A stretch of 64,000 bases of DNA from Halorussus sp. MSC15.2. GTDB lineage: Archaea > Halobacteriota > Halobacteria > Halobacteriales > Haladaptataceae. The position numbers were made by a program, and so were the translations under genes. Location of the stretch: the NCBI RefSeq assembly GCF_010747475.1, contig NZ_VSLZ01000003.1, positions 310,001 to 374,000 of the forward strand. Reading direction: 5' to 3'. Of the stretch, positions 31,768-38,332 are shown piece after piece. Below the pieces are notes generated by a model that worked only from the letters and a program-made list of their open reading frames with translations, was not told the DNA's origin and did no database searches. Each line of letters starts with the position of its first letter. The stretch's first letter is position 1.

Positions 31768-32688
31768 CTATTCCACAACGACGAAGGCGATGTCGACGAC
31801 CGCCGCGCCGCCTCTGGTGAACGGACCGTCTTTCTCACCGCCCGACTGGACGAAGTCGTACGTCTCGTTGTCGTTCGTACTCTTGTGGGGCATCGCGATG
31901 AGCGCCTGCGTCGACTGGAGTTCATCCTGATTGAACTCTGCACCCGGTACGCTCTCGAACAGCGGCACCTCCACGTCTTCGTGTTCGCCCGCATCGAGGA
32001 GTTCGGACGCGCCGATGACGCTGTCCACCGGATTTAACCCGTCTGCCACCAAGCTCAGGTCGTGGATGGCCATGAACCCCTCCTCCGGCAGGAAGGTCTC
32101 CTGCACCGTGACCTTGCTACCGCCGTACGTCTGATTCCGGAACGTGACCGTCGCACCGTCGACCTCCTTCTCCTCGTCATCGTCCTCGTCTTCGAGGTCG
32201 ACGGGTTCGTACGCGACCTTGAGGAACTCGAACTTGCCCTTTTCGTCGCCCTCACAGGGAGCCGGTTCGCCGGCGAACTTGTAGACTTGCGCCGTCTCCA
32301 CGTCGGTCCCCGTCGGAACGAGCAGGTACGACTCCCGGGCGGCCGCGTCGGCGTCCTCCGAGAGATAGAATATCTGGTAGACGTGGTATTCCTCTTTCGA
32401 CCCTCCGCACGCGACCGGACGCGTCTGGGGGAACTTCCCACCTTCGGGATTCTCCAGCAGGATGAACTTGCCGTCGCCGAACTTCTCGAACTTCTTTTTG
32501 GGCGTGAGCGCGGCCGGCTGTCCGGATGCCGCGACGGTGCCCGTACCCATCGATAGGCCAAGACCCGCTGCCGACATGGCAGTTGTCTTCTTGAGGAAGT
32601 CTCGCCGGGAGTCGAACGGACCGCCCAGTTTTTCGGTTAGTGCCTCGATGCTCTCTTTCGAACTAATGGTGTCGTTTTTCTCAGTCAT
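31768..32688 (-). CDS. Tat-exported DUF7282 domain protein
   Basis: 306 residues from the ATG at 32688. The twin-arginine signal is SRRDFLKKTTAMSAAGLGLS, preceded by a ~35-residue polar leader. The middle (about 70-190) is not recognised; it holds two Cys and an acidic DEDDDEEKE run. The C-terminal ~130 residues (VTFRNQTYGGSKVTVQETFL to GAAVVDIAFVVVE) match the haloarchaeal extracellular DUF7282 domain, often found in surface proteins. No membrane anchor is visible. It is the last gene of the minus-strand accessory block and probably has its own promoter, since 526 bases separate it from the next upstream gene. Confidence 0.78.
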   Translation of the reverse strand: MTEKNDTISSKESIEALTEKLGGPFDSRRDFLKKTTAMSAAGLGLSMGTGTVAASGQPAALTPKKKFEKFGDGKFILLENPEGGKFPQTRPVACGGSKEEYHVYQIFYLSEDADAAARESYLLVPTGTDVETAQVYKFAGEPAPCEGDEKGKFEFLKVAYEPVDLEDEDDDEEKEVDGATVTFRNQTYGGSKVTVQETFLPEEGFMAIHDLSLVADGLNPVDSVIGASELLDAGEHEDVEVPLFESVPGAEFNQDELQSTQALIAMPHKSTNDNETYDFVQSGGEKDGPFTRGGAAVVDIAFVVVE

Positions 32689-33214
32689 TGTCAGTTTGGT
32701 CTGCGGTAGCTCCGGTCTCATCCCAACACTCCTCGTTCGTCCGACACCGTGTCTATCCCATCAAACGGGAAAAATTGGAGAAACTGTTTCAGTTGTCTCG
32801 GGACTGTTGAGAGGTAATAGAGATAGATTATCCAGCGCTACAGCAAGAATCCCTCCGTTTTCAACCCCTTAATCGACGTTTCGGAGGATAACGCAATCGT
32901 TACACTCTCGTGAAGTGCAGAAGTGTATCTTCTCTCGACCGAAAGTGGAAACACGCACTCACTTATCGTCTCCCTCTTCCACTGTCAATGGCTCTGTAGC
33001 GTCCAGAGATTCCGTTTCGGTCTGTAGGAAAACTGCGCTTTCGTGCATCGTCTCGTTGCGTTCGACTTATTTTCCAGAAATAAAACTCTAGTTTCGGACC
33101 CTCGGAGAATTCTGCTCAGTTCCGGGGGATAACGCGCCCTCCGACCCTCGCGAAATCGGTGAGACGGTCAGGTGCTTTCCGCGATGAATGAGGAGTCTGT
33201 TCGAAAGAGTGTAT
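32689..33214. other. 526-base gap inside the accessory block
   Basis: No gene seen on either strand. The composition is clearly more AT-rich than the flanking genes (for example attttccagaaataaaactc near 33070). It should contain the promoter of the DUF7282 gene. I found no convincing copy of the shared promoter module seen upstream of the other two transcription units. Confidence 0.5.
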
Positions 33215-34408
33215 TCACCCGGACCTGGTAGTGGTCTCTCCAGTCGTCTTGGCAGTAGTGGCGTTCGTCGTGGTCGTCTCCCTCGCCTCAGCATCGTGCC
33301 GAATTGCGAAAGCGTACGGAGCTGGCGTGGACATTCTATCAACCACCTCGTCCGTCTCAGTGTCGATGGTGACGACCTGATTATTTCCGAGGAACGCGGC
33401 GTACGCCAGCTTTCCGTTCGGACCGACGGTGATTCCGTACGGGCCTGCCGTATACGCTTCGTGGCTCTCGACCGGAATCTCCTTCAGGGAATCGTTGACG
33501 GTGATGATGTTCGAGAGTTCGTAGCTCGGTCCGGAACCGCCTCCGTCGTTGCCGGACGCCGCCTCGTAGACGACGACCGTCCCCGCCCGCATTCCAGTCG
33601 CGTAGGCTTTACTCCCGTCGGGCGTCAGTGCGACATCCGCCGGGCCGTCGGTCAGCGGCCGTGTGCCCAAGAGCTTTCCCTGTTCGGTATCGACGACGCC
33701 CAAATCGTTCGAGACCGTGTTCGTTGTGTAAAGACGATTTCTCTCGGCGTTGAGCGCGATAGTGCGAGGCCCGTCGGCGACCTTAATCGTTGAGGTCATC
33801 TTCAGGCGCTCGACGTCGATAACGCCGACGGTATCGCTCCCGTGATTCGTGACGTAGGCCTGCGTACCGTCGGGACTGAACACGACGTCGTGTGGGTTCT
33901 CTCCGACGTCGATAGTGGTCTGGACCGCGAGTTTTTGGGTGTCGATTACGGCGACGGTGTTCTCGCCCCGATTCGCGACGAACGCGTACTGGCGGTCGGC
34001 ACTGACGCCGACACCTCGCGGTTGCTGACCGACTGGGATACGTTCGGTCTCCTCTTTCTTCTCGGGATTTATCACCGAAACGTCGCCGCTCTCGGCGTTC
34101 GTCACGAAGAAGGACTGCCCCCCGACTCCGCCCGAGATGTAGAGCGGTGCCTTCCCGACCTTGATGTGAGTGGTGTCCTTCACCGACTTCGGCAGTTTTG
34201 CGTCGGCCTTCGTCACCACCACTACGTTCGCCTCCCAGCACGTGGTGTACAGATTACCTGTGCCCGTCCCGCCACCGTCATCTTGCGCGAGGGCGGGAAC
34301 AGCACTGCCGCCGATTGCGGTTGCGGCTCCAATTCCGCCAGTGGTCCGAAGCAGTTTCCGTCTGGTGAGTCCGCTATTCTCTGTCCGCGATTCGTCATTT
34401 TGCGTCAT
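33215..34408 (-). CDS. Tat-exported YVTN beta-propeller protein
   Basis: 397 residues. The twin-arginine signal is TRRKLLRTTGGIGAATAIGG, cleaved after VPALA. The mature protein is a seven-bladed propeller of YVTN/NHL type, with blades such as SADRQYAFVANRGENTVAVI, SPDGTQAYVTNHGSDTVGVI and TPDGSKAYATGMRAGTVVVY. A Thr-rich tail ends it without a membrane helix. YVTN propellers occur in surface and periplasmic proteins, some with copper-redox partners; function here unknown. A clear Shine-Dalgarno, GGAGG (34416-34420), lies seven bases before the ATG, so the transcript has a leader. Confidence 0.85.
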   Translation of the reverse strand: MTQNDESRTENSGLTRRKLLRTTGGIGAATAIGGSAVPALAQDDGGGTGTGNLYTTCWEANVVVVTKADAKLPKSVKDTTHIKVGKAPLYISGGVGGQSFFVTNAESGDVSVINPEKKEETERIPVGQQPRGVGVSADRQYAFVANRGENTVAVIDTQKLAVQTTIDVGENPHDVVFSPDGTQAYVTNHGSDTVGVIDVERLKMTSTIKVADGPRTIALNAERNRLYTTNTVSNDLGVVDTEQGKLLGTRPLTDGPADVALTPDGSKAYATGMRAGTVVVYEAASGNDGGGSGPSYELSNIITVNDSLKEIPVESHEAYTAGPYGITVGPNGKLAYAAFLGNNQVVTIDTETDEVVDRMSTPAPYAFAIRHDAEARETTTTNATTAKTTGETTTRSG

Positions 34409-34977: not shown

Positions 34978-36999
34978 TCAGTCGTCGTCTCCCAAGTAAC
35001 GCTGGAGTGCAGCGAAGCCCCCAAGTCCGCCGAGCGCAGTCGACGCACCAAATCCTGGCGCGCGTGCCCGACTAACGAGGTCCCGTCCGACATCGTTAGC
35101 GGCCGTCTCGTTCTGTATCGTCGTTTCGGTTCCGTCGGTCTCCGTCGTCTCGTTCGCGGCCGGTCGCTCGGTTGCGTTGACGTTCACCTGTTCGACTCGC
35201 CCTTCACCAGCGGGGACGAGTTTGTAGAGCGACCCCTCGTTCTGCTGACGAAGGAACGTCTCACTGGTCAGCACGTAGAGTTCTCCAGCTTGGTCTTCGC
35301 CGAACGAGATGACGAACCGGCTGATTCGGTTGTCGGGACGACTGAGACCCTCGGTCACGACTCGGAGCTTGTCGACACCCCAGACCCCGGTCTCCTCCGA
35401 CTCGGTGGCGACCAACAGCGTCCCGTGCGGGGCGACGGGCGAGAAACTCCAGTCGCCGAACACGTACTTGTCTTGGAGGTCCGGAAGCTGTTCCCCGGTG
35501 TAGACGTGTCCGCCGACGACGGCCTGCCCCACCGGCTTGTCCTCGTGAACGTGCGGATATTCGAGAATTGGGTCGAGCAACGGGTCGCTTCGGGGCGGGT
35601 AGCTCGTATCCGCGCACTTGAACTGTTTCGGCGGATTCCCCTGCGAGTACGGGTCGAAGCAGTGTTTCCCCTCTCGGAGCCGCCAGCCGTAGTTTCCGCC
35701 CTTCTCCACGATATCGACCTCCTCGTACAGCGCCCGACCGACGTCGCCCACGAACAACCGACCGTTCGGTCCGAACGACATCCCCCACGGGTTGCGGAAG
35801 CCCCAAGCGTAGTGTTCGTCGAGACCCGCTTGACCGACGAGCGGGTTCCCGTCGGGAATGGCGTACTCCTTCTGCTCGCCCCGGACGTTCTGACTGCCGT
35901 CCACGTCGATACGGAGGATGCTACCGAGCAGGTTGTTGTAGATGTCCTGCCCGTTGCCACCCGTGACGTGGCCCTGCATGTCGCCCGTGTCGCCGCCGAA
36001 TCCGCCGTCGCCGATAGGGACGTAGAGGAGTCCGTCGGGACCGAACGAGATGTTTCCGCTGTTGTGGTTCGACCCCGGCGACGGCATCGCCAGCACTATC
36101 TTCTCGGTGTCGGGACTCGCGCCCTCGAGGTTCGGGTCGGCCTCGAACTCCGAGACCAGCGACGCGTGGTGGGTCTCCCCGCCCATGTCGTCCTGTACGG
36201 GCGCGCTGTACCGGACGTAGAACTTCTGGTTCTGCTGGAAGTTCGGGTGGAACGCCAGTCCCAGCAGTCCGGTCTCGGGGTGCGGTCCCGCCTCGTGGAA
36301 GATGCGGTCGCTGATGTCGATGAACGGTTCGCGCTCGCTCACGTCGAGCGCCTGTTGCCCGGTAATCTCGCTCCTGTCGAGGACGTAAATCTGGCCGGGC
36401 TGGTCCGCGACGAACAGTCGGTCCTCGCCCTCGGGTGCCTTCATCGCCACCGGGTACGAGAAGCCGCTGGCGACCTCTTTCAGTCCGACCTTCGGGCCTT
36501 TCGGGAAGTAGCCCGCGTCCACCGGGTCGGGTTCCTGCTGAGTCTGGCCCTCGACCTCGATGTCGCCGCGCATGCTGAGGTAGTGGACGTCGCAGTAGTA
36601 CTGGACCATGTTCTCGGTCGCGACGAACTCGACGGTCTGGGTGTCGCCCTCGGCGTCGAGATACGGCGAAAACACGACCAAGTTCCCCTTCGTGGTGTAG
36701 ACCGAGAAGTTGTGCGACCGACCGTCGAGGTTCTCCCAGACCACCCGGTACTTCTTCCCGGCTTCGAGGTTCAGCGTCGGGTTCTTCACGCCCGAGATTC
36801 GCTCGGGCGCTCGCCCAATCCAGTAGTCGGCCACGCCGTCCAATCTGAACGTCTGCGCTACGTCCGAGTCGTCCTGCGCGGCCGCGACGCTGGCCGCACC
36901 TGCGGCGGTCGCTCCGGCCGCCCCCACGGCCTTCACGAAGTCCCGACGCGACGTGTCTCCGAAGAATCGTTCCGTTGGTGAGTTCGTGTCTCGTGTCAT
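34978..36999 (-). CDS. Tat-exported cupredoxin-PQQ aldose dehydrogenase with PGF-CTERM anchor
   Basis: 673 residues in four parts. (1) Tat signal, TSRRDFVKAVGAAGATAAGA (RR at 18-19). (2) Blue-copper domain, about 48-152, with type 1 ligands His96 (SHNF), Cys136, His139 and Met143 (YYCDVHYLSM). (3) Soluble PQQ-dependent sugar dehydrogenase propeller, about 165-600, with LLGLAFHPNF (catalytic-type His251), IGDGGFGGD, GFRNPWGMSFGPNGRL and EEVDIVEKGGNYGW. (4) A Thr/Asn-rich linker and a C-terminal PGF motif (648-650) with helix and acidic end, a PGF-CTERM signal for archaeosortase processing. It should oxidise aldoses outside the cell and pass electrons to its own copper domain. It follows the copper protein gene by 28 bases, so they form an operon. 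Confidence 0.88.
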   Translation of the reverse strand: MTRDTNSPTERFFGDTSRRDFVKAVGAAGATAAGAASVAAAQDDSDVAQTFRLDGVADYWIGRAPERISGVKNPTLNLEAGKKYRVVWENLDGRSHNFSVYTTKGNLVVFSPYLDAEGDTQTVEFVATENMVQYYCDVHYLSMRGDIEVEGQTQQEPDPVDAGYFPKGPKVGLKEVASGFSYPVAMKAPEGEDRLFVADQPGQIYVLDRSEITGQQALDVSEREPFIDISDRIFHEAGPHPETGLLGLAFHPNFQQNQKFYVRYSAPVQDDMGGETHHASLVSEFEADPNLEGASPDTEKIVLAMPSPGSNHNSGNISFGPDGLLYVPIGDGGFGGDTGDMQGHVTGGNGQDIYNNLLGSILRIDVDGSQNVRGEQKEYAIPDGNPLVGQAGLDEHYAWGFRNPWGMSFGPNGRLFVGDVGRALYEEVDIVEKGGNYGWRLREGKHCFDPYSQGNPPKQFKCADTSYPPRSDPLLDPILEYPHVHEDKPVGQAVVGGHVYTGEQLPDLQDKYVFGDWSFSPVAPHGTLLVATESEETGVWGVDKLRVVTEGLSRPDNRISRFVISFGEDQAGELYVLTSETFLRQQNEGSLYKLVPAGEGRVEQVNVNATERPAANETTETDGTETTIQNETAANDVGRDLVSRARAPGFGASTALGGLGGFAALQRYLGDDD
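35104..35142 (+). repeat. 39-nt direct repeat, copy 2
   Basis: Lies inside the dehydrogenase gene, encoding the ETDGTETTIQNET linker on the minus strand. Identical to 31584-31622. Confidence 0.85.
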
Positions 37000-37027: not shown

Positions 37028-38332
37028 TCAGGGCGTGACGACGAGCGTCCCTCGCATTCCCTCTCGGGCGTGGCCGGGGACGCCGCAGACGTAGGTGAAC
37101 TTCCCGACCTCCTCTGGCGTGAACGTGACGCTGGCGGTTCTTCCGGGGAGTATCGTGTCGGTCTTGACGCCGAATTTGGGCAGTTTGAAGTTGTGCGAGA
37201 TGGTCCCGACGTTCCGGAATCGGATGGTCACTTCGTTCCCCTGCTCGACGGTGATTTCCTCTGGGTCGAAGGTGTACTCCTGACCAGTTACCTCGATTTC
37301 GGTACCCGCGGCTTCCTGCGTGGTCGGAGTCGGCGTGTCCTCGAACTCAGTCGGATACTGCGGTTCGAACGGCGCTTTCTGGAGCGTGTTCTCCTCGAAC
37401 ATCACGTGGATGAACTTCTGTTTGACCGGGATGCCGTCGAGGGGCGCGTATTTGGGCTTTCCCTGCTTGGTTATCTTAATCGGGAGCACTATCAGATGCG
37501 TGTGAAGGAGTCGTCCGGCGATGGTGTTCTCGGGGCGAAGCGGCAGGTCTTCCTCGATAGCAAGGTTGTACGTATCGGTCCGGACCGTCTGCGTCGTCAT
37601 CCAGTGAGTGACTCGGCGCTTGCTTACGGTCGTACCGTTCACGATGACGTCGGCGAGGGAGTACGAGGCCCCGTACGTGTACACCTTGGGCATGAGGGGC
37701 GACCCGGTGTCCGTAAGCCCGTGGTGGAATCTGTCGGTGAACACGCCCCCGCCGGTCTGGTACTCCGGAATCGGCGGCGCGAATATCGTCCGGAAGTCGA
37801 GTTCGTAGTTGTTCCGCTTCGGGTCCGTGAACCGGAGTTTACCGACCTCTATCGCGTCCTCGGTCTTCGTCGGCTTCCCCGAGTCCTTCGGGTCGCGGTC
37901 GTGGTACGTCAGTTCGAACTCGCCGTCGATAACTCGTCCCTCGTCGCTGAACGCCGTCGGGACCGTCGTCGTGGTGAACTCGCCGTCCTCGACCGCGCGC
38001 TTGTCGAGCGGAACGCCGACGGGAAACGGGTACTGCCGGAGTAGCTCTTTGATTGCCGGTTTCTTTGCCTTCTCGATGACTGGTTCGACGAGTTGCTTGG
38101 GATTCTCCGGCGTTCCGAACACCTTCTTGCTCAGTCGGCGCTTGCCCGGAAGGACCCAGTAGACGAGTCGTCCCGCGTCCTGCTTCACCTGTACTTCGGT
38201 CGGTAAGCCCTGACCCTGCGTCGTCTCTTGGGCCGTCGCCGCACCACCGAGGCCCGCAGTTATTCCCACCCCTGCGGTCGCTCGCAGGAATCGCCTGCGC
38301 GATGCGCCGCGTCCGTTACTGTCGTTGCTCAT
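37028..38332 (-). CDS. Tat-exported protein with C-terminal blue-copper (cupredoxin) domain
   Basis: 434 residues. Twin-arginine signal, SRRRFLRATAGVGITAGLGG. Residues about 40-320 form a domain I do not recognise, with several His residues (FHHGLTD, LLHTHLIVLP) and no Cys. After a Thr/Pro linker, residues about 340-434 are a plastocyanin-like cupredoxin with His380 (ISHNF), Cys416, His421 and Met426 (YVCGVPGHAREGM). There is no C-terminal anchor, so it should be a soluble extracytoplasmic electron carrier or a copper-dependent enzyme. It is the first gene of the operon with the PQQ dehydrogenase; a GGAGGG ribosome-binding site lies about six bases before the ATG. Confidence 0.85.
   Translation of the reverse strand: MSNDSNGRGASRRRFLRATAGVGITAGLGGAATAQETTQGQGLPTEVQVKQDAGRLVYWVLPGKRRLSKKVFGTPENPKQLVEPVIEKAKKPAIKELLRQYPFPVGVPLDKRAVEDGEFTTTTVPTAFSDEGRVIDGEFELTYHDRDPKDSGKPTKTEDAIEVGKLRFTDPKRNNYELDFRTIFAPPIPEYQTGGGVFTDRFHHGLTDTGSPLMPKVYTYGASYSLADVIVNGTTVSKRRVTHWMTTQTVRTDTYNLAIEEDLPLRPENTIAGRLLHTHLIVLPIKITKQGKPKYAPLDGIPVKQKFIHVMFEENTLQKAPFEPQYPTEFEDTPTPTTQEAAGTEIEVTGQEYTFDPEEITVEQGNEVTIRFRNVGTISHNFKLPKFGVKTDTILPGRTASVTFTPEEVGKFTYVCGVPGHAREGMRGTLVVTP

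Follow-up and report, generated by a model that had tools for sequence, protein, structure and literature searches.

In Halorussus sp. MSC15.2, a single gene joins a type 1 copper domain to a propeller of dehydrogenase fold, and the two-domain architecture of its product, predicted to be exported by the Tat pathway, is supported as real by the sequence and by structure prediction. We think it rather probable that this protein is an exported oxidoreductase, in which the propeller would act as a dehydrogenase and pass the electrons of its substrate, via the fused copper, to a mobile carrier. In the proposed mechanism, the C-terminal propeller, which resembles the human Hedgehog-interacting protein (HHIP), would oxidise a small external substrate (an aldose or a related polyol is the default guess) most likely with the help of calcium and a scavenged quinone such as PQQ. 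The two electrons would leave singly through the N-terminal copper and pass to a mobile halocyanin-type carrier, which would deliver them to the respiratory chain; a cupredoxin protein encoded immediately upstream is a candidate for this carrier. We infer the identity of the cofactor, the substrate, the direction of electron flow and the membrane anchoring from the features described below.

The gene lies in a stretch of 64,000 nucleotides (the window), to which the coordinates in Table 1 refer. The limits of the open reading frame in the original prediction proved exact, and the strand, which had been left unstated, is the minus strand. From the N to the C terminus, the protein comprises a Tat signal, a cupredoxin domain (approximately 45–150), the propeller (approximately 167–600), a Thr/Asn-rich linker and a PGF tail. 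The Tat signal, already recognised in the original prediction, is backed by the motif SRRDFVK and by a profile search (TIGR01409, 17.7 bits, above the cut-off of 16.7). An AlphaFold model of the whole protein, built from 59 aligned sequences, is confident in both domains, while residues 1–42 (pLDDT below 50) and 606–673 are disordered; its strands, at 49–150 and 167–596, match the domain limits first proposed (48–152 and 165–600). The names given to the gene in databases, “PQQ-dependent sugar dehydrogenase” or “plastocyanin”, cover one half of it only.

Table 1. Features of the fused gene and its neighbours (coordinates in the window; residue numbers are those of the fused protein).
Feature	Coordinates	Strand	Remarks
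Whole gene	34978..36999	minus	673 aa + stop; ATG start at 36999
Tat signal region, residues 1–42	36874..36999	minus	twin-arginine motif SRRDFVK at residues 17–23
Cupredoxin domain, residues 45–150	36550..36867	minus	PF00127 above cut-off; model pLDDT 94.8
His96, putative type 1 copper ligand	36712..36714	minus	invariant 78/78; aligns with plastocyanin HN
Putative copper loop Cys136-x2-His139-x3-Met143	36571..36594	minus	Cys, His and Met each invariant 78/78
Six-bladed GSDH/HHIP-type propeller, residues 167–600	35200..36501	minus	PF07995 104.3 bits
His312, counterpart of catalytic His144 of sGDH	36064..36066	minus	invariant in all groups
Arg402-Asn403, counterpart of PQQ-binding Arg-Asn	35791..35796	minus	His-Asp in human HHIP
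Gly421-Glu426, presumed counterpart of sGDH calcium loop	35722..35739	minus	aligns with sGDH EQGPNSDDE; G421 and E426 invariant
Residues 557–573, site of Arg-x-Arg in sGDH/Asd	35281..35331	minus	motif missing in fused protein
PGF motif (648–650), hydrophobic tail, acidic end	34981..35058	minus	possible archaeosortase signal (sequence)
Upstream gene: Tat-like signal, ~300 residues of unknown domain, C-terminal cupredoxin	37028..38332	minus	PF13473 52.8 bits, cut-off 27
YVTN propeller gene	33215-34408		downstream of fused gene
DUF7282 Tat protein gene	31768-32721	minus	downstream of fused gene

A Pfam scan of the whole protein does not show the cupredoxin domain; the isolated domain passes PF00127 (23.2 bits, cut-off 21.2), and this family is matched at E<0.1 by 45/45 aligned relatives. 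The four type 1 copper ligands claimed from the sequence are all present: H96, C136, H139 and M143 are invariant in 78/78 non-redundant fused haloarchaeal homologues, far above what chance would give, and these homologues were gathered by similarity, with the motif playing no part in their selection. A chance origin of the motif is ruled out by this full conservation together with the fold, and the domain is predicted to bind copper. The same His-Cys-His-Met set is found in halocyanin, amicyanin and plastocyanin, although the Cys-x2-His-x3-Met loop is one residue shorter than that of plastocyanin and, we presume, one residue longer than that of amicyanin.

Searches with a profile of this cupredoxin's own family bring up plastocyanins and amicyanins, as well as the N-terminal domain of the Hyphomicrobium denitrificans nitrite reductase. 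It is also this last domain (2dv6, residues 24–134) that gives the best fold match of the modelled cupredoxin (mean pLDDT 94.8), with a Z of 15.5 over 103 residues and the next group at about 11. The three-domain nitrite reductase (2dv6, 6tfo) likewise carries a tethered N-terminal type 1 cupredoxin, but its partner is a nitrite reductase, whereas the partner here is a propeller. The resemblance would fit a reverse flow, in which the copper would feed the propeller, as is thought for the tethered cupredoxin of the three-domain enzyme, and the protein would be a reductase; this is very improbable, given that the fused protein has no nitrite reductase domains and that the propeller-fold relatives of known activity are dehydrogenases.

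The propeller belongs to the glucose/sorbosone-dehydrogenase fold (PF07995, GSDH; 104.3 bits, cut-off 25) and, as judged by sequence and fold comparisons, to an HHIP-like branch that is nearer to human HHIP than to the soluble glucose dehydrogenase (sGDH) of Acinetobacter. The nearest solved structure by sequence is human HHIP (3ho3, 2wft, 7pgm; E 2.9e-31), ahead of sGDH, and HHIP is also the best Foldseek match of the propeller; in the fold comparison, the best HHIP entries (Z up to 38.9) and the best Asd-type entries are tied at 37–39, and sGDH follows at 33–34. In the trees, the whole HHIP-like set, with its archaeal and bacterial members, is split, with a support of 99–100, from three Asd-type proteins, two of which come from the Halorussus sp. 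MSC15.2 genome itself, where there are nine GSDH matches in total. The closest paralogue in this genome (L004, G000 C6:42423-43697) has a propeller that is 51% identical, has no copper domain and is extended at its C terminus by a stretch without a match in Pfam.

Human HHIP is not known to be an enzyme. As the top match by sequence and by Foldseek is thus a ligand-binding protein, the propeller could be a non-catalytic, HHIP-like module for binding or adhesion, with a copper domain that works independently in copper holding or surface redox buffering. This reading is unlikely: where human HHIP has His-Asp, the family of the fused protein has kept the Arg-Asn pair, which was counted in favour of an enzyme, and the propeller has been fused repeatedly to several kinds of electron carrier. 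The position of HHIP as the nearest solved structure was nevertheless counted against the oxidoreductase that we favour, as were two observations that follow, the absence of a C-terminal Arg-x-Arg and that of pqqC.

The six-bladed propeller is shared with sGDH (1cq1) and with the Asd enzymes (E. coli YliI, 2g8s; Pyrobaculum, 3a9g; Streptomyces, 3das), and so are the catalytic His, the Arg-Asn and the position of the stretch that we take to be the calcium loop (Gly421-Glu426, EQGPNSDDE in sGDH). In the alignment of the fused homologues, H312, N403, G421 and E426 are present in 72/72 and R402 in 71/72, and all five residues are kept in the aligned non-fused haloarchaeal (n = 25), bacterial (n = 40) and further archaeal (n = 26) relatives. 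The sGDH and Asd enzymes differ in standing on a separate branch, in having no fused copper domain and in their C-terminal Arg-x-Arg, a motif that grips the carboxylates of PQQ and occurs in 3/3 of the aligned Asd-type proteins and in 0/72 of the fused homologues. In sGDH, the two arginines of this motif are presumably Arg406 and Arg408. Arg408 is described in the literature (PMC6881789), as is a different set of carboxylate anchors holding PQQ in the AA12 enzymes, so the missing motif makes PQQ less likely but does not decide against it. With the curated model for PQQ dehydrogenases, TIGR03606, the score of 83.2 bits is far below the cut-off of 434.55. The PQQ aldose dehydrogenase propeller with its characteristic motifs, as given in the original prediction, stands as to the fold, the His, the Arg-Asn pair and the calcium-loop Glu, and fails as to Arg-x-Arg and TIGR03606; PQQ is a putative cofactor.

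The cofactor question is sharpened by the genomes. No pqqC match above the cut-off was found in 391 genomes of the class sample (haloarchaea) or in 392 genomes of the phylum sample, a wider archaeal set that includes methanogens with the propeller; the two samples overlap, and the Halorussus sp. MSC15.2 genome is included. The positive control for this search, the pSymB plasmid of Sinorhizobium meliloti, gave 429 bits. The use of pqqE as a sign of PQQ synthesis was rejected: the cut-off is 381 bits and its best match reached only 139, and all 14 control genomes gave matches in this search too. Halorussus sp. MSC15.2 and its relatives thus appear unable to make PQQ, so either PQQ is scavenged or the cofactor is another one. 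PQQ is used without synthesis of their own by E. coli and fungi (PMC6881789, PMC12124388).

One alternative keeps the redox chain but not PQQ: the HHIP-like branch would rely on a different bound cofactor or on a site with metal only, and the label “PQQ-dependent” would have been transferred from sGDH in annotation. We regard this as possible but doubtful. The loss of the PQQ-gripping Arg-x-Arg, the lack of pqqC in the haloarchaea and in the phylum sample with its propeller-bearing methanogens, and a TIGR03606 score far under the cut-off all speak for it, but the His, Arg-Asn and calcium-loop residues, which in characterised enzymes touch calcium or the quinone of PQQ (PMC6881789), are kept, AA12 binds PQQ through other carboxylate anchors (PMC6881789), and scavenging is feasible (PMC12124388).

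The best evidence for electron transfer is the recurrent fusion of the propeller to one-electron carriers. Among the haloarchaea, 231/391 genomes match the fused protein (some by one domain only), and 82 non-redundant fused open reading frames were gathered. Three methanogen-type archaeal proteins (L175, L176, L177) have a different N-terminal cupredoxin on the propeller, with a DUF7282 domain lying between the two in L176 and L177, and six others (L193, L194, L197, L199, L200, L201) have a C-terminal cupredoxin with a full His-Cys-His-Met set; seven bacterial relatives carry one or two in-frame CxxCH motifs of c-type haem. All ten of the propeller-bearing genomes that were searched for methyl-coenzyme M reductase, those of the cupredoxin-fused proteins included, gave a match, nine of them above the cut-off, and are for this reason considered to be methanogens or their close kin. 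The fusion states are scattered over the tree, which requires several gains or losses, and the propeller seems to have acquired its carriers more than once, as a haloarchaeal cupredoxin, in two methanogen arrangements and as bacterial c-type haem.

An enzyme that releases electrons would be expected to show just such a joining of one propeller to varied carriers. The repeated fusions strengthen the original proposal that the copper is a built-in electron acceptor, of which copper binding and the direction of the electrons are the parts that we infer. There is also a fairly small chance that these proteins form a family of extracellular oxidoreductases, widespread in archaea, whose propeller has a non-PQQ cofactor and has been wired to copper by several independent fusions, those of methanogens included. 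The link between blue copper and a dehydrogenase fold in anaerobic, methanogen-type genomes was unexpected. One of these proteins (L200, 896 aa) has, in addition to the propeller and the C-terminal cupredoxin, a carbohydrate-binding module (CBM6/35), which hints at a carbohydrate substrate.

That separate or haem-fused acceptors are normal for such enzymes, as had been stated at the outset, agrees with the literature (PMC6881789, PMC4332668). Haloarchaea have halocyanin, and not cytochrome c, as their one-electron carrier (PMC8305020), and copper in place of haem fits with this. The pyranose dehydrogenase of Coprinopsis cinerea, an AA8-AA12 quinohaemoprotein, follows the same logic of a six-bladed quinoprotein with a fused one-electron carrier (PMC4332668, PMC6881789), except that a haem b cytochrome serves as carrier and that the AA12 branch is distant from our propeller (13–15% identity, Z 26–28). 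The haem-fused quinoproteins and the copper-tethered nitrite reductase are the closest precedents; our search of the open-access literature brought up no study of a copper-fused member, no experiments on one and no papers on haloarchaeal PQQ sugar dehydrogenases, and a Thaumarchaeota genome paper supposes cupredoxins to be the acceptors of separate PQQ dehydrogenases (PMC6657660). If the proposal is correct, the fused protein would be a dehydrogenase of the quinoprotein type that carries its own blue copper, in parallel to the fungal and bacterial enzymes with fused haem, and it would give haloarchaea a route for electrons from external sugars without cytochrome c. The apparent lack of PQQ synthesis makes the cofactor question sharp and testable, and a self-contained, copper-wired dehydrogenase active in high salt would be of interest for electrodes and sensors.

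A PGF-CTERM lipid anchor was also predicted, and lipid anchoring is possible. The Thr/Asn-rich linker is indeed followed by PGF and a hydrophobic stretch, and the genome encodes a predicted archaeosortase A (322.8 bits, cut-off 75); against this, the tail matches neither PF18204 nor TIGR04126, and it ends in Asp residues, so that it is acidic rather than basic. A PGFG-like tail is present in only 17/82 fused homologues, and PGF was rejected as a family-wide anchor.

The upstream gene lies on the same strand, with a gap of 28 bases, and its cupredoxin has a Cys-x4-His-x4-Met loop; its product is a possible partner of the fused protein. At 62 other loci of the fused gene, neither a neighbour of this kind nor any informative conserved neighbour was found, and the neighbourhood was set aside as a clue. 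A DUF7282 gene lies nearby and the domain is also present inside two of the methanogen-type fusions; it may be a component of the same redox system. In several genomes, Halococcus among them, fused genes stand in tandem head-to-tail pairs (L009, L010, L159, L160, L163).
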